Below the pieces are notes generated by a model. The model worked only from the letters and a program-made list of their open reading frames with translations, ran no database searches and had not been told where the DNA came from. Both the position numbers and the translations under genes were made by a program. From a virus: a stretch of 57,774 bases of DNA. Within the stretch, counting starts at the first letter, position 1. Every line of letters begins with the position of its first letter. The DNA is taken from IMG/VR virus record IMGVR_UViG_3300010318_000003, positions 1-57,774 of that record; one strand, written 5' to 3'. Positions 29,263 to 57,121 of the stretch are shown here, piece by piece.

Positions 29263-29927
29263 AGTATGTAGTTAATTAGCTGAGTCGAGTAAGACTTAAT
29301 ATCATCGATGTTTTTAAGATGCGGATTTTTTCTAAGCAAAGTAGAAATAGATCTCTTCTTAACAAGATAGTCTATCAAGAAAGTTTCATCAGAGGTTTCA
29401 AGATCCGTAATCCTAAACAAAAGATCCTTATGGTTTGTAAGAAGATCTGCAAAGTTTACTTCAGAAGTTTCTGTAGACTCGATTACGCAATTTTGCTCTG
29501 TAACCGGGTTGAACGACATAGTAAATGCAGTTCGGACGGTGTCTACTTTTTTAACAGGGATGTTTAAATCGTCTGCAATTTCTTGATTGGTAACATTAGG
29601 ATTTTTGATAAGGTACTTCCTAATTTTCAGATACAGATCCGAGTAAGACCTGGGCATTTTAACCAATCTGGAGCTATCTCTGAGATAATTAAGCATGTGA
29701 AACTGCAAGCACCTGTTTACCCAAGTGCTAAAGTTTGCGCCTTTACTTTGATCCCAGGTATCATAGATACGCACAATATACTCGAGGGCGGCGTCTCTGA
29801 GCTCTTCAAATGGCAATCCTGTGAAATTAGTGATCTTTCTTGCAACCTGATCGGCCTTCCACATCTGAGAGATGATATGCTCGTCTCTCTTATCTCTAGC
29901 TCTTTTAGATCTAGTTTTTTCTATCAT
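29184..29927 (-). CDS. Phage RNA polymerase sigma factor (sigma-70 family, gp55-like)
   Basis: A 247-residue protein with sigma-70 region 2 at about residues 35-92. It has the core-binding helix followed by 'G-A-N-F-S-T-W-V-N-R-C-L-Q-F-H-M-L-N-Y-L' and 'R-D-S-S-R-L-V-K-M-P-R', corresponding to the G-x-x-F-S-T-Y-A/R-x-I-R-x-x-x-R-x-V-R-x-P pattern of regions 2.3-2.4. Residues about 95-135 fit region 3 (N-Q-E-I-A-D-D-L-N-I-P-V-K-K-V). No convincing region 4 is present and the tail is basic. It would redirect host RNA polymerase to phage promoters, possibly the GTTTAAAG sites. It follows the thioredoxin gene with a 4-bp ATGA overlap and is probably expressed from a host-type promoter at about 30308-30316. 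Confidence 0.85.
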   Translation of the reverse strand: MIEKTRSKRARDKRDEHIISQMWKADQVARKITNFTGLPFEELRDAALEYIVRIYDTWDQSKGANFSTWVNRCLQFHMLNYLRDSSRLVKMPRSYSDLYLKIRKYLIKNPNVTNQEIADDLNIPVKKVDTVRTAFTMSFNPVTEQNCVIESTETSEVNFADLLTNHKDLLFRITDLETSDETFLIDYLVKKRSISTLLRKNPHLKNIDDIKSYSTQLINYILWADKSYQSVDKTIQKQPSRRSGPRS

Positions 29928-30235
29928 TTCTCAATACAGTTAATGATGTAGTCTTTTAATTGACCTTTGGCCATCATGCCCTCGGTATTAAGACCCAACA
30001 GAACTCCTTCTTCGTCAAATGTTGCGAAGTTAGGTGTACCGTCACATTCAATCTTGTCGCAAAAAGCCCAATCGTCAGAGGTAACATCCCACTCTCCAAA
30101 TCCAACTTTAAGATGGGGATATTCTTCAGAGATTTCTGAGGCAACTTCTGCCCAGATAGGTTTCATTGCTTCACATGCTGAGCAGCTAGGCTGTTTAAAA
30201 AATACAACTCTATATTTAAATTTTGTTTCTGGCAT
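29924..30235 (-). CDS. Thioredoxin-like protein
   Basis: A 103-residue protein with the thioredoxin fold pattern: beta strand 'YRVVFFKQPSCSACEAMKP' with active-site C18-S-A-C21, then a Trp-containing helix, a strand 'VGFGEWDVTSD' and the cis-Pro region 'DGTPNFATF' (about residues 64-72). C-S-A-C differs from the usual C-G-P-C and implies altered redox potential. It could reduce the phage RNR or other targets. It lies 85 bp after terL and is coupled to the sigma gene by ATGA. It could equally be a regulatory partner of the sigma factor, as nothing in the sequence settles this. Confidence 0.8.
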   Translation of the reverse strand: MPETKFKYRVVFFKQPSCSACEAMKPIWAEVASEISEEYPHLKVGFGEWDVTSDDWAFCDKIECDGTPNFATFDEEGVLLGLNTEGMMAKGQLKDYIINCIEK

Positions 30236-48816: not shown

Positions 48817-49554
48817 ATGCCAGAGAACCTTCTGTTAGTCTCAGACATTCACTCAAGAAACGACGCTCTCTCAAGGCTACTGGATAAGCTTACACCAAAA
48901 ATCAACGCTGGAGCTCACATTGTATTTCTCGGAGATCTAAACGATTGTAGAGATAAATCTTACCAAGATCAATGTAGCTTTAATGAGGTATATTGCCTTG
49001 TTCGCCAGCTCTGTGATGAAGGTTATGCAACTCTTGTTCACTCCAACCACTCACAAAATCTTTGCGATCACTATCTTAAAAGAAGGAAGGTTCATAAAGG
49101 AGTTATGGGCTTCAAACATACTCTCCAAGAAATAGACCAACTCGATGAAGAATATAGGCAAGACATGATAGAGTGGCTGGATTCTCGACCTTTAGGACTT
49201 AGCTACAAACTTGATAACGATAATCATTATCACATATCCCATGCGTTTCACGATCGAAAGCTAGATTATAGCAATCCATCCACTCTAACACCGGAGCAAA
49301 TAGACAGAACTCTTAGAGGAGTAAAGCACTCTTGGCTGTATCAGGGAAAGAAATATAGCAAGCATATCGGCTTTTGGAGAAACCCAGAAAAGCGTGGCGC
49401 AGTTGATAACCACATTTTATGTGCAGGACACTGGGAACAAGTAATTGTAACCGATAATTGCGTGGTCAATGATCCAGGTGGACATAAGACTGACGGTACA
49501 ATAGGAGTATATAACGCAATCGAGCACGAAATTACTATCTACGAAAACAAATGA
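48817..49554 (+). CDS. Calcineurin-like metallophosphatase
   Basis: A 245-residue protein with the metallophosphoesterase signature: D10-I-H12 ('SDIHS'), G-D40-L-N-D ('FLGDLNDCRD'), N77-H78 ('HSNHSQ', where Gly-Asn-His-Glu is usual), and later 'HAFHD' and 'AGHWEQ' metal-binding His residues. The overall layout fits PPP-type protein phosphatases and ApaH/PrpE-like enzymes, which remove phosphates from proteins or dinucleotide polyphosphates. Its substrate is unknown. Its stop overlaps the nrdB start (4 bp), so it is the first gene of the RNR operon and may counter a host phospho-signal or nucleotide alarmone. Confidence 0.8.
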   Translation: MPENLLLVSDIHSRNDALSRLLDKLTPKINAGAHIVFLGDLNDCRDKSYQDQCSFNEVYCLVRQLCDEGYATLVHSNHSQNLCDHYLKRRKVHKGVMGFKHTLQEIDQLDEEYRQDMIEWLDSRPLGLSYKLDNDNHYHISHAFHDRKLDYSNPSTLTPEQIDRTLRGVKHSWLYQGKKYSKHIGFWRNPEKRGAVDNHILCAGHWEQVIVTDNCVVNDPGGHKTDGTIGVYNAIEHEITIYENK

Positions 49555-50576
49555 CAAGCAGCATATTGACCCATGACCCAATGCTATTTAAGAAAGACGG
49601 AGGGTTTGATTTTCCAGAGTTTTACGAATACTACGAAAAAGCAGTAGCAAGCGTTTGGCGCCACCAAGAAGTTGCGATGGAGTCAGATCTTCGTGATTGG
49701 CAATTTAACTCTACTCCTGAAGAACGTAACGTAATTGCAGGTATTCTCAAGGGATTTGTTAGCGCCGAGCTAGGTATAGGATGCTACTGGGCAGATAAAG
49801 TTTGCTCTATTTTTCCTAAGCCAGAAATTCAGTCTATGGCTCGCGCATTTAGTTTCTTTGAAACAATTCACGCTGGAGCGTACTCCTACCTCAACGACAT
49901 CCTAGGTCTCGATGAGTACGATGAGTTTATCAACGACGAAGTAGCTAGAAAGAAAGTAGAGACTTTTTTCGATACTTATTCCGATAAAGTGTCTCTAGGA
50001 GTGTTTTCTGGTGCAGGAGAAGGAGTAAGTCTATTTAGCTCTTTTTCGGTACTCTTAAGCTTCAATAAGGATGGCAGGTACAAGGGTTTGAGCCAAATTA
50101 TCTCATGGTCCGCTATCGACGAGCAAATTCATTCTGAAGCAGGATGTAAATTATTTCGTAAGTTAGTAGAAGAAACTGGGCTAACCGACGAAGAGCGCGA
50201 TGGAGTTTATGAAGGTTTTCGTCTCGTAGTTGACAACGAGGAAAAATTTATAGATAATATCTTTAATGGTTATAAACTAACCACAATTGATGCTCAAGAG
50301 TTGAAGGCCACAATTGATGCTCAAGAGTTGAAGGCTTACATAAGGAATCGTGCAAACGAACGCCTACTTCAGCTTGGCTTAGATCAAATTTTCAAACTTT
50401 CTACCGAAGAGTTATCAAAGGCAAAATCTATAGCAGCATGGTTTGATCCAACAATTCGTGGGGCAAGTAGCACCGACTTCTTTGCTCAAGCACGAGACGG
50501 ATCAAACTACACCTCTAAAATTTCCCAAGATTTTACGTCGGTAGACCTAACTTCTCTAGAACTTTCTTTGTCATGA
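49551..50576 (+). CDS. nrdB: Ribonucleotide reductase small subunit
   Basis: A 341-residue class I RNR beta subunit that carries the diiron centre and radical. Seen residues: E104, H107 and the radical-type Tyr111 in 'FFETIHAGAYSYLND' (E115/H118/Y122 in E. coli), 'G-A-G-E-G' near residue 158, and 'D-E-Q-I-H-S-E' (about 194-200). It makes dNTP precursors with NrdA downstream. Residues 245-253 and 254-262 are an exact tandem duplication (T-I-D-A-Q-E-L-K-A). Its ATG overlaps the phosphatase stop. A homing endonuclease separates it from nrdA. Confidence 0.92.
   Translation: MTSSILTHDPMLFKKDGGFDFPEFYEYYEKAVASVWRHQEVAMESDLRDWQFNSTPEERNVIAGILKGFVSAELGIGCYWADKVCSIFPKPEIQSMARAFSFFETIHAGAYSYLNDILGLDEYDEFINDEVARKKVETFFDTYSDKVSLGVFSGAGEGVSLFSSFSVLLSFNKDGRYKGLSQIISWSAIDEQIHSEAGCKLFRKLVEETGLTDEERDGVYEGFRLVVDNEEKFIDNIFNGYKLTTIDAQELKATIDAQELKAYIRNRANERLLQLGLDQIFKLSTEELSKAKSIAAWFDPTIRGASSTDFFAQARDGSNYTSKISQDFTSVDLTSLELSLS
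50283..50336 (+). repeat. 27-bp in-frame tandem duplication inside nrdB
   Basis: Copy 1 is 50283-50309 and copy 2 is 50310-50336. They differ only at the last base (GCC and GCT, both Ala). Each encodes nine residues and the frame is kept, so the event is probably recent. Confidence 0.95.
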
Positions 50577-50731
50577 TTAAAATGCCTTACTACGAGACTA
50601 GTCTGAAAAAATGGGTTGTTGATTGCGGAGACCACAACGTATATTTTCCTGATGGAGAAACTGCTGAAGATTTCTATTTAATGAATAAAGCTAGATACAA
50701 CAAAGAAAATGAGCAATTACCAAGTACCTGA
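50573..50731 (+). CDS. Small hypothetical protein between nrdB and a homing endonuclease
   Basis: A 52-residue protein (begins MIKMPYYETSLKKWVV). Its ATG overlaps the nrdB stop (ATGA, 50573-50576) and its end overlaps the endonuclease gene by 23 bp in another frame. It has one Cys, an Asp/Glu-rich middle and a Lys/Glu-rich tail; no family recognised. The ATGA overlap suggests real translation. Confidence 0.55.
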   Translation: MIKMPYYETSLKKWVVDCGDHNVYFPDGETAEDFYLMNKARYNKENEQLPST

Positions 50732-51068
50732 CGGATGGGCCGAGTTTGGCGAAGAATGGAAGCGCTGGAAAAAGTCTCCGTACTTTGTTAGCGACAAAGG
50801 TCGTGTAAAGAGGGACGGAGAAATCCGCGCCCTCCGCGATGACGACCGTGGTCACTTTAGAGTAAATCTAACTTACGACGGCAAGAGAGAGGAGCCTAAG
50901 GTTCATCAAATGGTAATGGAGCTTTTCGGCCCACCCAAGCCCGATGGAGACCCTGTTATTCTGCACAAGAACAACAACGGACAAGATAATAAAATCTCTA
51001 ACCTTGAGTGGGGATCGCGTAGTAAAAACACTAAAGATGCTTACGACGACGGGTTAATAGATAAGTAA
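50709..51068 (+). CDS. HNH homing endonuclease (NUMOD4-type)
   Basis: A 119-residue protein. The N-terminal 'W-K-R-W-K-K-S-P-Y-F-V-S-D-K-G-R-V-K-R' fits NUMOD4, a DNA-binding module. The C-terminal 'V-H-Q-M-V-M-E-L-F', 'V-I-L-H-K-N-N-N-G-Q-D-N' and 'I-S-N-L-E-W-G-S-R-S-K-N' is an HNH_3 nuclease (H-K-N-N plus N-L-x-W). Free-standing HNH genes like this commonly sit inside or beside phage RNR genes. No intron or split is evident, so nrdA and nrdB remain intact. A consensus promoter follows it. Confidence 0.85.
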   Translation: MSNYQVPDGWAEFGEEWKRWKKSPYFVSDKGRVKRDGEIRALRDDDRGHFRVNLTYDGKREEPKVHQMVMELFGPPKPDGDPVILHKNNNGQDNKISNLEWGSRSKNTKDAYDDGLIDK

Positions 51069-51127: not shown

Positions 51128-53053
51128 ATGACTCCATTTAAAACAGAAAAGATTGCTCCTGACTGGATGTCAAAGGAAGCAATTGATACGCTTTCACGCG
51201 GATATTTAAGACCCGGCGAAACTCCAAAAGACCTGTTTATTAGGGTCGCCAAAACAGCTCAAAAATATCTTACCAAAAACCCTGGCCTTGGCGAGGACAT
51301 TTTTGAAATGATGTGGGAAGGGTATGTTGGTGGTGCTTCTCCTGTTCTTTCTAATTTTGGAGCAAGTTCGGGTCTTCCAATTTCATGCTATTCTGTGCAT
51401 TTATCTGATTCTGTGCAGTCCATCTATTCCCACTTAAAGGAGGTTGCGGCCCTCTCTAAGAACGGTGGAGGAGTTGGTGTGTATCTTGGAGATGTTAGAC
51501 CTGCCGGAGCCCCTATTACAGGGGGAGGTAAGAGCACGGGTGTGGTGCCGTGGGCCCAACAGTACGACCTGGCAGCAAGTGTAGTAAGCCAAGGCGGCGT
51601 GAGACGGGGTAGCTTTGCTATTTATCTTCCCATTACCCACTCAGATTTGCCTGAACTTCTTCGCTCTAAAGACCATTCTCAAGGCGACCCTCGTAAGTTT
51701 ATCGATAGCAACATTGCAGTTACCGTTGACGACGAGTTTATTAACGCCATGATCTCCGGTGACTTGGAAAAGCAAAAGCTATTTGGCGAAGTGTTGAAGA
51801 TTAGAATGGTGTCAGGATCTCCTTATATTATTTATATCGATAACGCGAATCGCCAAAACCCTGAATGTTACAACCAACGAGGACTAGAAGTCTCTACCTC
51901 TAATCTCTGCTCTGAAATCTTCTTGCATACCGATGAGAACCACTCGTTTGTTTGTGTATTGAGTAGCCTTAATTTAGCAAAATATGACGAGTGGAAAAAC
52001 TGGAGAGGAAAGAACACCGGAAAGACCGTTCCAGAGCTCACAACTTATTTACTTGATGCTGTTGTCGAGGAGTTTATTCACAAGGCGGAGCGCTTGCCGT
52101 CAATGGGAAGAAGTGTCAGATTTGCTAGGAAATCCAGAGCTTTAGGCCTGGGAACAATGGGATTACACGCCCTTTATCAAAGCCGCGGCTATGCATTTAA
52201 ATCAGAAAAGGCACGGCAACTCAACATTGAATGTCATAAATTTATTAAAGATAACGCCGAGAAAGCATCGAAACAGATGGCTAAAGAATATGGCGAACCT
52301 GAATGGTGTAAGGGCAACGGAATGAGGCATACACACCTTGTGGCTATTGCCCCTACTAGGTCCAACTCCGTTATCTCTGGAGCAGTGTCCCAAGGCATCG
52401 AGCCCTTAGATGCCAATTTTTATGTTGCAAAACAAGCCAAAGGAACTTTTGTTCGTAAGAATCCTTACCTTGAAAAGCATCTAGAAAGCATTGGTAAAAA
52501 CAACGAAGATGTTTGGGAATCAATTCTGGAAATGAGAGGAAGTGTACAACATCTCGAGTTCTTGAGTGAAGAGGAAAAAGAGCTATATAAAACCGCACGC
52601 GAAATCGACCAATTCGAGTTGGTAAGACAGGCAGGTGATCGCCAGCCGTTTGTTTGCCAAGGCCAATCACTCAATCTCTTCGTAGATCCAGAGGCCGATG
52701 CTTCTGAAATTTTTAAGCTTCATCTTAGCGCTTGGAAAGTTGGACTGAAGTCGTTGTACTATCTGAAGAGCTCCTCTCTCCTAGTCAAGAAATCTGCTCC
52801 TAAGTCATCAGAGGCCAAAGCAAAAATTATCACCAAATCCGACTGTCCTTATTGCGTAAGAGCCAAAGCGCTCCTAAGCTCGCAAAACATCTCATACAAA
52901 GAGATCAAACGCGAGGACGTTGAAGACTTCCCCTACGCAACGGTTCCCCAGATCTGGCTGGATGGTCAGCACATTGGCGGCTTTTCAGAACTTGAGGAAA
53001 AGTTTACAGGAGAAAAGTCAAAATATTCCGAGTGCGTAGCTTGTGAAGGTTGA
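51128..53053 (+). CDS. nrdA: Ribonucleotide reductase large subunit with internal glutaredoxin
   Basis: A 641-residue class I alpha subunit without an ATP-cone domain. Catalytic pattern: Cys87 ('SCYS'), N259-x-C261-x-E263 ('SNLCSEI'), Cys276, and the radical-pathway pair Tyr544-Tyr545 ('SLYYLKS'). Residues about 563-628 are a glutaredoxin: 'KIITKSDCPYCVRAKALL' with C573-x-x-C576, 'T-V-P-Q-I-W' and 'I-G-G-F-S-E-L'. After it come S-K-Y-S-E-C636-V-A-C639-E-G, the redox-active C-terminal tail normally placed straight after the barrel. It reduces ribonucleotides with NrdB; the glutaredoxin may re-reduce the tail. The start lies 24 nt after the -10 box. Confidence 0.92.
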   Translation: MTPFKTEKIAPDWMSKEAIDTLSRGYLRPGETPKDLFIRVAKTAQKYLTKNPGLGEDIFEMMWEGYVGGASPVLSNFGASSGLPISCYSVHLSDSVQSIYSHLKEVAALSKNGGGVGVYLGDVRPAGAPITGGGKSTGVVPWAQQYDLAASVVSQGGVRRGSFAIYLPITHSDLPELLRSKDHSQGDPRKFIDSNIAVTVDDEFINAMISGDLEKQKLFGEVLKIRMVSGSPYIIYIDNANRQNPECYNQRGLEVSTSNLCSEIFLHTDENHSFVCVLSSLNLAKYDEWKNWRGKNTGKTVPELTTYLLDAVVEEFIHKAERLPSMGRSVRFARKSRALGLGTMGLHALYQSRGYAFKSEKARQLNIECHKFIKDNAEKASKQMAKEYGEPEWCKGNGMRHTHLVAIAPTRSNSVISGAVSQGIEPLDANFYVAKQAKGTFVRKNPYLEKHLESIGKNNEDVWESILEMRGSVQHLEFLSEEEKELYKTAREIDQFELVRQAGDRQPFVCQGQSLNLFVDPEADASEIFKLHLSAWKVGLKSLYYLKSSSLLVKKSAPKSSEAKAKIITKSDCPYCVRAKALLSSQNISYKEIKREDVEDFPYATVPQIWLDGQHIGGFSELEEKFTGEKSKYSECVACEG

Positions 53054-53566: not shown

Positions 53567-53717
53567 GCACAGGGCCTTCGGGCCCACAAAATGTCATTAT
53601 TGCGACGGCAGAGGATTTTTAATAATTTTTTGCACCTCTTCCGAGGGAAAAATACTGCCGAGTTTGGTAGAAGAATGCGAGCACTGCAATGAAACTGGAG
53701 TCCTTCAAAAAAATTAG
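53550..53717 (+). CDS. Small zinc-finger protein with DnaJ-like CxxCxGxG repeats
   Basis: A 55-residue protein carrying 'C-H-Y-C-D-G-R-G' (residues 15-22) and 'C-E-H-C-N-E-T-G' (about 43-50), two C-x-x-C-x-x-x-G motifs as in the DnaJ zinc-binding domain. Two such motifs could coordinate one zinc. The gene overlaps the dUTPase-like gene by 17 bp and the HNH gene by 29 bp, both in other frames, so it relies on coupled or overlapping translation. It might be a tiny chaperone-like or RNA-binding adaptor. Confidence 0.65.
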   Translation: MTKQTEHRAFGPTKCHYCDGRGFLIIFCTSSEGKILPSLVEECEHCNETGVLQKN

Positions 53718-54183
53718 TCCGTTAGCTAAAGAACAAATTCTTGTTCTAAACGCGTCATACGAGCCAATTAATATTACGTCGTGGAAAAGAGCATTTGTGC
53801 TTCTTTTAAAAGACAAGGCTCAAGTTATTTCTGATACGGTTATAAAACTTACAAACTTTATAAGAATTCCTTATAATAAAATGATGAGAGCTAAGCCTTC
53901 TAGGCAGTCAATTTATATTAGAGATAACCATAAGTGCCAGTATTGTGGGTCTACAAGAAAGCTTACCATAGATCACGTAATTCCAAAATCTAGGGGTGGC
54001 GATGATAGCTGGGAAAATCTTGTAGTTGCCTGCAGTAGATGCAACACTCTAAAGGGAAACACTCCCTTAGAGCAGTGCAGCTTAAAGCTTTCAAGAAAGC
54101 CTACTAAGCCAAGAACTCACTTAGATTTAACTTTGTATAAATCTAGTAACGAAGAGTGGAAAGAATACTGCTTTATTGTTTAA
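53689..54183 (+). CDS. HNH endonuclease (cyanobacterial type)
   Basis: A 164-residue protein. 'V-L-N-A-S-Y-E-P-I-N-I-T-S-W-K-R-A' (about residues 19-35) is the N-terminal block of a widespread cyanobacterial HNH family. Residues 81-120 supply the HNH core: 'H-K-C-Q-Y-C-G-S', 'T-I-D-H-V-I-P-K-S-R-G-G' and 'N-L-V-V-A-C-S-R-C-N', with zinc-binding C-x-x-C pairs and the catalytic D-H. The last residues (C-F-I-V) plus the stop codon create the GTTTAAAA promoter core at 54178-54185. It may cut DNA nonspecifically or at host targets. Confidence 0.85.
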   Translation: MKLESFKKISPLAKEQILVLNASYEPINITSWKRAFVLLLKDKAQVISDTVIKLTNFIRIPYNKMMRAKPSRQSIYIRDNHKCQYCGSTRKLTIDHVIPKSRGGDDSWENLVVACSRCNTLKGNTPLEQCSLKLSRKPTKPRTHLDLTLYKSSNEEWKEYCFIV

Positions 54184-54875: not shown

Positions 54876-56087
54876 TTAGATTGACCAGATTGGCTCCATT
54901 GCTTTCTTAGAAACTACGTTTGATTGTCTAAGAATCTTTGGAGTTCCATCGTCCTTGAGCTCAGGCTCAATCCACTCTCTTTCTCCATCAAGAGCTGCAA
55001 CAGCTTCTTCAAGCCAGCATTGAGCAGCGTTTACCGGAACATTCTGGCAAATAACGTTAGAGTCCTTTGTAGAAATTTCTGTTTTATCCGCAAAGTCGTC
55101 TGGAAATCCCATAAGGGCCAGAGCCTCACTCGTCATGAGCCAGCGGTCTTCATAAGGATGTTTTAGCATCGGAAGTGTGCGCCACATCAAAGCTTGAGTT
55201 CTATACCATGCAAGCTTCATGCTTCCGTCCATGATATTTAGTCCGTTAGCTTTCTTTTCACGAGTATAGTTTAACCAACGATTCATACGCTCATCGCGAA
55301 CCGCTATGCACGCTTCGTCTAACCACCCAGAGTTGTAGATAACGTTCCACGTGCTAACCATTCTTTGACTTGCAATCTGAGAAAGTATGTCTTGATCACT
55401 TGAGCCTCTGTATTTTTCTTTGATAAATTGCCACAACGGGTCGGTGCTAGGAGCGGGCTTATTACTTACCAACGGAGATTTGCTAAAATGTCTATCTCCT
55501 AGAAACTTATGAAAAGGAACAAAAGGCTTGGATACCTCATTAAATACAGGGACCTTATTGCCCTTCCATAAAAAGAAGAAGCTACGCGTTCTTTCTTGAG
55601 GAAGGCCGTTTTTCAACGCAGATGTTTTGATAAGGGTCATTGCGTATCCGTTTTCTTGGGCCAAGGTGTTAATCCTCTCAGCAAATTCCTCTCCGGCTTT
55701 AGAGTACAGAGTTGGCGCGTTCTCAACCATTATAACTTTTGGTTTAATTTTTTTCATCGCGAACTCAGACCCGTTAATCATGTGAATATTACTCGGAGCA
55801 GAACATCCACGGGGGTTGTTTGCATCAGGGCCTTTTGTCGTGTTTGCATTTGATAAACCCGCGCATGGAGGCAAACATGTAATAATATCTACGTATTTTT
55901 TAGGCTCGGTCTCTTCTAGGTTAAAATATGGTATAGTGGGGTAGTATTTCAGGCAGTACTGGTCATTTCCGCTAAAAACGCTATCCCAAGACGCAATCCA
56001 TTCAGCAGGTTTACCGAGAAGCTGTGTAGCTCCAATAACGCTCCCTCCTACAAGAGGGATAACGTGCCCGTGAGTGTAATTTGACAT
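54876..56087 (-). CDS. DNA (cytosine-5) methyltransferase
   Basis: A 403-residue C5-methyltransferase. Motif IV 'L-P-P-C-A-G-L-S' has the catalytic Cys (about residue 75), motif VI is 'V-E-N-A-P' (where E-N-V is usual), and motif VIII is 'Q-E-R-T-R'. A C-terminal 'Q-N-V-P-V-N-A-A-Q-C-W' corresponds to motif X. The N-terminus (MSNYTHGHVIPLVGGSVIGA) stands in for motif I (usually F-x-G-x-G) and is divergent. It would methylate phage DNA, likely against host restriction. It is convergent with the early block and starts 58 bp from the divergent homing endonuclease gene. A truncated 5' copy lies at 56901-57077. Confidence 0.9.
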   Translation of the reverse strand: MSNYTHGHVIPLVGGSVIGATQLLGKPAEWIASWDSVFSGNDQYCLKYYPTIPYFNLEETEPKKYVDIITCLPPCAGLSNANTTKGPDANNPRGCSAPSNIHMINGSEFAMKKIKPKVIMVENAPTLYSKAGEEFAERINTLAQENGYAMTLIKTSALKNGLPQERTRSFFFLWKGNKVPVFNEVSKPFVPFHKFLGDRHFSKSPLVSNKPAPSTDPLWQFIKEKYRGSSDQDILSQIASQRMVSTWNVIYNSGWLDEACIAVRDERMNRWLNYTREKKANGLNIMDGSMKLAWYRTQALMWRTLPMLKHPYEDRWLMTSEALALMGFPDDFADKTEISTKDSNVICQNVPVNAAQCWLEEAVAALDGEREWIEPELKDDGTPKILRQSNVVSKKAMEPIWSI

Positions 56088-56145: not shown

Positions 56146-56916
56146 ATGGTTAATCCAGAAGAAAAATACCTAAGATTTATCGAGCATTGCTCTAAGAAAA
56201 AGTACCACCCAACAGAGTACTTAGAGCGCCATCACATCGTTCCTAAGCACGAAGGTGGGTCGGATAGTCCTTCTAATATCATAAAGCTAAGCCTTAAAGA
56301 TCATAGATTAGCTCATAAAATAAGATACGAAACATACGGTAATAAGTATGATCTTTCTGCGTATAAGTTTATGGAAGGCCAGAGCGCGGAGGCAAAAAGA
56401 GCTATCTGTTCTGCAAATGGCTCAAAAAGTAAAGGGAGAAAACTAACAAAAGAGCACAGAGAAAAACTTAGTAGGCCCGGAAGTTTAAATAGTTTCTATG
56501 GACAAACTCATTCGGTGGCTTCTAAGCAAAAAATGAGACAAGAAGCTACTGGGCGAAAGTGGAAAGAAGAGGCTAAAGAAAAACTTAGCGAAACTTTAAG
56601 AAATAGTCCTGAAACTACAGGGAGTAGGAGATGTAAAATAGAAGGAAATGTTTATAGGTCTTGTGCAAAAGCCGCTAGCTCTTTGGGGTTAAAAAGAGCC
56701 ACGTTAAAGTATAGATTAGATTCTAAAAACTACGAAGAGTATATTTGGCTGGACCCTCCCAAAACTACTAAGGTCAACCACCAGTCTTTACAAGTATTAG
56801 TAAATGGTATAGAGTACCATTCTGTTAGCTACGCAGCAACCCAGTTGAGTCTTCACCCAAAAACGGTCTTTAGAAGATGTGAAAATCCTGCGTATCAAAA
56901 CTATAAATTTTTATAA
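56146..56916 (+). CDS. HNH homing endonuclease with NUMOD3/NUMOD1 modules
   Basis: A 256-residue protein. The N-terminal HNH domain has 'L-E-R-H-H-I-V-P-K-H-E-G-G' (about residues 25-37), 'N-I-I-K-L-S-L-K-D-H' and 'A-H-K-I-R-Y'. Then come NUMOD3-like motifs ('S-K-G-R-K-L-T-K-E-H', about 85-94, and 'N-S-F-Y-G-Q-T-H-S') and two NUMOD1-like segments ('S-C-A-K-A-A-S-S-L-G-L' and 'S-V-S-Y-A-A-T-Q-L-S-L'), each a DNA-binding helix-turn-helix. It is a mobile homing nuclease placed between an intact methyltransferase gene and a stump of another copy. Its last 16 bp overlap the stump's 3' end in the opposite frame. Confidence 0.88.
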   Translation: MVNPEEKYLRFIEHCSKKKYHPTEYLERHHIVPKHEGGSDSPSNIIKLSLKDHRLAHKIRYETYGNKYDLSAYKFMEGQSAEAKRAICSANGSKSKGRKLTKEHREKLSRPGSLNSFYGQTHSVASKQKMRQEATGRKWKEEAKEKLSETLRNSPETTGSRRCKIEGNVYRSCAKAASSLGLKRATLKYRLDSKNYEEYIWLDPPKTTKVNHQSLQVLVNGIEYHSVSYAATQLSLHPKTVFRRCENPAYQNYKFL

Positions 56917-57077
56917 AATGGAGTTTCTGAAAAGAATTTTAGGCAATAAGAGTCATTTGTCCCAAACGTATTGGACCATGATGCGATCCACTCTGGATCA
57001 CGACCGAGAGCAGTGGTTGTGCCTACAACCGATCCACCAACAAGAGGAATTATATGACCGTGAGAATAACTACTCAT
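56901..57077 (-). pseudogene. Truncated N-terminal copy of the C5-methyltransferase
   Basis: 58 residues starting MSSYSHGHIIPLVGGSVVG. They align end to end with the start of the intact methyltransferase (54876-56087), sharing 'H-G-H-x-I-P-L-V-G-G-S-V', 'E-W-I-A-S-W' and 'Y-C-L-K', and stop at an in-frame TAG near the endonuclease stop. No catalytic motifs remain, so it is a remnant. The divergence from the intact gene (about 60-65 % by eye) shows it is not a fresh tandem copy but a different allele. The reading frame before residue 1 (from 57119) has no known start. Confidence 0.85.
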
Positions 57078-57121
57078 AATTAAATTATTTTTTACTGAGA
57101 TCTTTAGACTGAGGATCATCG

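Follow-up and report, generated by a model that had tools for sequence, protein, structure and literature searches.

Phage class I ribonucleotide reductases with a predicted glutaredoxin domain between the catalytic barrel and the redox tail

The catalytic subunit (NrdA) of a class I ribonucleotide reductase (RNR) encoded in the window, the whole 57,774-nucleotide stretch of marine cyanophage DNA analysed here, carries a predicted glutaredoxin (Grx) domain between its catalytic barrel and its C-terminal redox tail. Judging by sequence comparison, this barrel-Grx-tail order is a real, conserved and recurrent domain arrangement among Grx-RNR fusions. Trees of the barrel indicate that it arose in unrelated phages at least twice independently, and this repeated origin suggests that the fused phage RNRs recharge themselves with glutathione (GSH).

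Domain organisation of the fused protein

The nrdA-grx fusion gene (51128-53053, plus strand) is open across 641 amino acids and was assigned, from the reading frame, Pfam and NCBIfam matches and PDB sequence and fold matches, to an ATP-cone-free class I RNR catalytic subunit; Pfam gave no ATP-cone match in this protein. Residues 1-548 (51128-52771, plus strand) comprise the all-alpha region and a complete catalytic barrel, as delimited by PF02867 (up to residue 546, E 4.9e-104), a PF00317 match below the cut-off, and fold and human R1 alignments. They are followed by a cysteine-free linker (residues 549-562; 52772-52813, plus strand), recognised by pLDDT values below 50 at residues 556-561 and by the linkers of homologues, and by the Grx domain (residues 563-628; 52814-53011, plus strand), defined by PF00462, a Grx3 fold match and predicted secondary structure. 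The displaced NrdA redox tail (residues 629-641, ending ECVACEG; 53012-53050, plus strand) was assigned from the homologous tails of Grx-less proteins and pLDDT values below 50. The C-terminus reads YSECVACEG, its CVAC being encoded at 53033-53044. The only cysteines of the protein are 87, 247, 261, 276, 369, 394, 510, 573, 576, 636 and 639; there is none between residue 510 and the CPYC motif, and hence no cysteine pair between barrel and Grx. Pfam, PDB matches and the cysteine map bear out the first-pass annotation, which had placed a CPYC glutaredoxin between the NrdA barrel (ending, in that annotation, near residue 553) and a C-V-A-C motif at 636-639.

Residues 13-551 matched the class Id NrdA 6dqw in a phmmer search of the PDB (E 4e-138), and the best fold match of the barrel in VIA-align was the class Id NrdA 6dqx (Z 53.4, rmsd 1.3, 512 residues). 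These enzymes of Flavobacterium johnsoniae and Actinobacillus ureae (6dqw, 6dqx) are likewise minimal, ATP-cone-free barrels, with 41-42% identity, but unlike the window NrdA they have no Grx. Residue alignment to human R1 showed that the C87/C276 redox pair, the thiyl site C261, N259, E263 and Y544-Y545 are retained (7/7), as had been claimed for the catalytic residues. In a sub-clade represented by loci L006 and L007, Gln (SQLC[AS]EI) takes the place of the active-site Asn, which is N259 in the window NrdA.

The radical-generating partner is encoded by nrdB (49551-50576, plus strand), identified by PF00268, alignment A6 and PDB alignments. Its ligand set is E73, E104, H107, E157, E191 and H194, together with Tyr111. 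E73 aligns with the first Glu ligand of 6cwo and Tyr111 occupies the Tyr104 position, giving the Tyr/Glu pairing that has been named as a mark of class Id (PMC8463856). Lys71 of F. johnsoniae, which lies beside the metal site in 6cwo, aligns with Gly77. By the closeness of NrdA and the Tyr/Glu pairing of NrdB, the window RNR would be class Id-like, a firm class Id assignment being withheld because Gly77 replaces the metal-site lysine. S-TIM5 has been assigned to the NrdAi/class Id group (Harrison et al. 2019, PMC6370689).

The Grx domain scored 41.3 bits against PF00462 (residues 567-616, E 1.8e-10, cut-off 22.9), and residues 564-622 matched E. coli glutaredoxin 3 (1fov) in a phmmer search of the PDB (E 3e-11). 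It contains CPYC (573-576), the cis-Pro motif TVP (605-607) and GG (617-618). The structure predicted with AlphaFold2 from a 54-sequence alignment (mean pLDDT 90) showed a confident barrel and Grx fold (565-627), a disordered linker (556-561) and a disordered tail (632-641). The predicted Grx secondary structure was strand-helix-strand-strand-strand-helix, helix 2 being a mere stub. Modelled alone, the domain matched E. coli Grx3 (Z 9.8, 67 residues, rmsd 1.6) and the H. influenzae hybrid Prx5 (1nm3; Z 10.4), a natural Grx-peroxiredoxin fusion; it shares the Grx fold and CPYC with both. The CPxC, TVP and GG motifs and the modelled fold mark residues 563-628 as a dithiol glutaredoxin, with a predicted GSH-dependent disulfide reductase activity.

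Distribution and independent origins of the arrangement

Scanning viral contigs with a C-terminal profile revealed at least 485 relatives, and the barrel-linker-Grx-tail order was present in every complete protein of the best 80 loci, which were inspected. The order is common to at least 72 distinct viral-contig proteins, and CPxC was intact in 72/72 Grx-bearing homologues. A second scan of viral contigs used the NrdA barrel alone as the query, blind to the C-terminus, and yielded 80 loci. Grx was found in all 33 loci at 60-84% identity (three end at contig edges and one has TYP for TVP) and was absent from all 47 at 45-52%; this split (33/33 at 60% or more against 0/47 at 52% or less) points to a Grx that is fixed in the clade of the window NrdA.

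The same order was found in S-TIM5-type and S-CBWM1 cyanophages. The named phages carrying it were S-TIM5, S-TIM54, S-TIM61, S-TIM66, S-CBWM1, C48C1, Delftia phage phiW-14 and Acinetobacter phages nACB2 and SH-Ab 15599; the Delftia and Acinetobacter phages show that it is peculiar neither to the window cyanophage nor to cyanophages. The NrdA of S-CBWM1 contains an annotated intein (L011, 3784-4809), and fused NrdA reading frames of about 1000 amino acids (L025, L027, L032, L034 and L060) are probably intein-bearing too.

In the barrel trees, Grx-bearing enzymes formed two remote clades, and the branch separating them had 100/100 support. Clade A (the window, S-TIM5, S-CBWM1) was placed among class Id-like enzymes, and clade B (C48C1, phiW-14, nACB2) near the NrdA of Sutterella, Bermanella and alphaproteobacteria. 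A single origin of all fusions was rejected, as constraining the barrel accordingly costs 293 log units (AU p 3e-50). The Grx-domain tree, from a short, long-branched Grx set, also spoke weakly against one clade (p 0.016). The NrdB partners have Tyr/Glu in the window, S-TIM5 and S-CBWM1 versus Tyr/Asp in C48C1 and phiW-14. Within clade B, the Grx-less bacterial Bermanella sequence L179 nested beside a fused sequence in the barrel tree, so an extra gain or loss of Grx is possible there. No cellular source of the fusion was found among 80 bacterial loci, save for a Sphingobacteriales MAG contig (L100, 2492-4477) with a clade-B-type NrdA-Grx C-terminus, which probably stems either from a provirus or from a phage contig that was misbinned.

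Compared with Grx3 and Prx5, the Grx of clade A is missing helix 2 (about 8 residues) and has the NrdA tail in place of its C-terminal end. The distance from CPxC to the cis-Pro is 28-33 residues in clade A versus 35-36 in clade B and 36 in Salmonella Grx3. Free-standing mini-glutaredoxins of the cyanosiphophages S-CRES1 and S-CBS2 (L018, 2989-3180; L189, 286-489) are also without helix 2 and group loosely with the clade-A Grx; proteins of this kind are a possible donor type for it. The fused Grx of L223 has TYP instead of TVP. In the two unsaturated pairs (most pairs were saturated), dN/dS was about 0.09-0.10 for the Grx; the barrel gave 0.03-0.07. These values indicate that the fused Grx is under purifying selection.

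Identity of the C-terminal tail

The bare CVAC DNA motif is expected by chance about three times per window, and its meaning therefore rests on position and conservation. In 71/71 complete Grx-bearing homologues the chain ends in a CxxC with no more than four residues after it. Relatives without Grx end like the window protein: L228 in YYVRSSSVLRADLSSRGECVACEG, Lau218 in ...MSIEDEDVCLACEG and Mx1 in ...SKDECAACEG (fuller C-terminus YYLRAEGVLKGDLASRSKDECAACEG). The C-terminus of L009, which also has no Grx, is YYCKSTKAKIETYADCEACHG. The shared endings of L228, Mx1 and Lau218 bear out the earlier proposal that the terminal CVAC is the NrdA redox tail. Since these relatives have the same tail directly after the barrel, the Grx was inserted between the two. 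In clade B the flanks are clearer still: they are LYYLRTEAVSRAENVGMKIERMSIEDEDVCLACEG in Lau218 and LYYLRTSAGAKADTVSIKATRVALKDYADDDECLSCQG in Bermanella L179, both Grx-less, and LYYLRTEAKSRAENVSEKVERVALQEDT-[Grx]-DESEECRACEG in the fused L072; as the fused and Grx-less flanks correspond, the Grx lies between an ancestral linker and the ancestral tail.

The linker was cysteine-free in 71/72 homologues, that of L032 having a single cysteine, and contained a pair in 0/72. This rules out an ordinary tail concealed upstream of the Grx, in agreement with the view that none precedes it in the window protein. Equating the tail CxxC of Grx-less proteins with the CPYC of the Grx, as in a naive alignment (A1), is judged an artefact, given that the Grx fold is complete and the chains end in CxxC-E-G/A. 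A fusion by simple loss of the stop codon that separates nrdA from a neighbouring grx gene was also ruled out, as it would yield barrel-tail-Grx. The distance from GG to the first tail cysteine was 17-20 residues in 60/71 complete fused proteins, across both clades, with L044 at the extreme (11 residues). In Grx-less tails, mostly 14-23 residues separate the Tyr pair from the cysteine. About nine residues lie between the end of the Grx helix and C636 in the window NrdA.

Other redox genes and the nrd neighbourhood

The fused Grx was the sole PF00462 match in six complete fused phage genomes. Separate Grx genes (1-3) were present in 7/11 Grx-less relatives; the chance of 0/6 was 462/12376 = 0.037, calculated by hand for a hand-picked, non-independent set of phages. 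Agrobacterium phage Atu_ph07, Sinorhizobium phage Phosso and Rhizobium phage B1VFA have a separate grx directly behind nrdA. They combine nrdB, a related nrdA and grx in one cluster, the same three partners as in the window, but as two proteins with the NrdA tail at its own end, unlike the fusion. The thioredoxin-like C-S-A-C protein reported elsewhere in the window was confirmed (103 aa; 29924-30235, minus strand; PF00085 Thioredoxin, E 1.1e-6) and is a possible alternative RNR reductant. S-TIM5 has a Thioredoxin match of similar size; no such match was found in the other five of the six complete fused phages.

PF00268 was the only match above cut-off in the window NrdB, which has no fused Grx. 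NrdA carries the sole Grx of the window, so the system is not of the Grx::NrdB type (Francisella, Facklamia ignava). The NrdB of Delftia phage phiW-14 (L180, 3936-4976) is annotated as a bifunctional Grx/NrdB; contrary to this annotation, the sole Grx match in that genome lies inside NrdA. The gene order nrdB-HNH gene-nrdA, with nrdB upstream, is identical in S-TIM5, where HNH genes flank nrdA on both sides. Three HNH/NUMOD endonuclease genes surround nrdAB in the window (50709-51068, 53689-54183 and 56146-56916). A perfect 27-bp tandem duplication in nrdB (50281-50334) adds TIDAQELKA; the S-TIM5 NrdB, 97% identical, is without the second copy. A C5-methyltransferase gene (54876-56087, minus strand) and a brief repeat of its N-terminal part (56901-57119, minus strand) are separated by an opposite-strand HNH gene, which gives the appearance of a paralogue that was truncated or interrupted.

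Discussion

The mechanism that we consider most likely for the NrdA with an inserted Grx, at a probability of roughly 0.7, is a relay from GSH through CPYC and the tail pair to the active site. Each turnover would leave C87-C276, the active-site pair, oxidised; the mobile tail pair C636-C639 would reduce it and itself become oxidised; the tethered CPYC (C573-C576), which lies beside the tail on the same arm, would reduce the tail pair of that arm or of the partner's; and host glutathione and glutathione reductase would restore the Grx. We infer that CPYC reduces CVAC inside one arm or one dimer, with GSH as the electron source. The barrel-Grx-tail order would let the terminal pair enter the cleft unhindered and keep the Grx adjacent when the tail swings out. 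The relay fits the retention of CPxC, TVP and GG, the purifying selection and the lack of a second Grx in the six fused genomes. The first-pass annotation had called such a relay self-contained, which is too strong, since GSH and glutathione reductase must still be supplied by the host. As the tail behind the Grx is short (about nine residues, and a GG-to-Cys distance of 11 in L044), the Grx may need to dock at the mouth of the active site. The fusion would hold the reductant at high local concentration and in a fixed 1:1 ratio, and a tethered reductant would aid a lytic phage whose picocyanobacterial host has a class II reductase. The bolder statement, that phages have at least twice made a class I RNR its own glutaredoxin on a tuned arm (spacing of about 18 residues), with only GSH needed, stands at about even odds.

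The same short tail, down to 11 residues from GG to Cys in L044, could mean that the tethered Grx enters the cleft and reduces C87-C276 directly, CVAC being a relic or a mere resolving pair. This is very unlikely: no complete homologue in either clade has lost its CxxC tail, which would not be the case for a relic, and redoxins do not fit the active-site pocket according to a review (PMC4390871). The relay could also run mainly in trans, with the Grx-tail arm of one protomer acting on its partner, at the active site or at the tail. Such a course, which is a sub-case of the preferred relay and not its opposite, is a tentative possibility; inter-subunit electron transfer has been shown in a class II RNR (PMC5704485) and the short tail leaves the reach in cis uncertain, but the short chain distance between CPYC and CVAC would favour cis for the Grx-to-tail step.

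A different role for the Grx, in redox sensing, control by glutathionylation or folding, with a host or phage thioredoxin reducing the tail, is unlikely. The thioredoxin-like proteins encoded in the window and S-TIM5 would accord with it, but the other five fused phages gave no thioredoxin match, the dithiol CPxC/TVP/GG set is fully conserved, and the two independent insertions occurred at the same junction of an enzyme classically served by Grx. A fused Grx moreover acts as a reductant in F. ignava (PMC6187632). Finally, the window is a metagenomic virus record, in which a sequencing error might have joined two genes during assembly or annotation; the chance of this is negligible, and the artefact was rejected, as the same domain order occurs in the isolated, completely sequenced phages S-TIM5, S-CBWM1, phiW-14 and SH-Ab 15599 and in dozens of contigs.

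Grx::NrdA fusions, with both on one polypeptide as here, have been listed in two viruses (Rozman Grinberg et al. 2018, PMC6187632, Table S1); the main-text passage on them that we consulted gives no placement, tail, evolution or assay. Our guess is that the two viruses are S-TIM5 and phiW-14, both of which have RefSeq records. The same paper describes the Grx fused to the F. ignava NrdB as an efficient GSH-driven RNR reductant. In that Grx::ATP-cone::NrdB (class Id), the Grx is likewise carried on a class I RNR subunit and GSH reduces the holoenzyme, but the Grx sits at the N-terminus of NrdB and has to reach the NrdA tail on the other subunit to reduce it, whereas the window Grx lies inside NrdA, adjacent to the tail. 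Harrison et al. 2019 mention fused Grx trimmed off beta sequences (PMC6370689), and glutaredoxin is unmentioned in the main text of two family-wide RNR studies (PMC9531940, PMC9669993), the latter describing class I C-termini as disordered tails. The cysteine-rich C-terminal domain of class II NrdJ (PMC5704485) is likewise a redox domain on an arm feeding the active site; unlike the Grx, it is zinc-binding, unrelated in sequence, and was not reduced by the redoxins tested. Internal placement, repeated origin, fixed spacing, fixation and loss of a separate Grx were not found in the searchable literature, which holds few subscription journals and supplements. Within that literature, the internal placement of the Grx, its independent origins and its fixed spacing appear to be undescribed before.

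Studies of how the active-site disulfide is regenerated usually employ external redoxins, which have to find a floppy tail. In a natural protein whose redoxin is joined to that tail, one can ask whether the encounter with the redoxin limits RNR turnover, and whether the tail acts in cis or in trans. The arrangement also shows that marine and other phages have rewired DNA-precursor synthesis repeatedly, and it provides a ready-made case of an RNR that may run on GSH alone.
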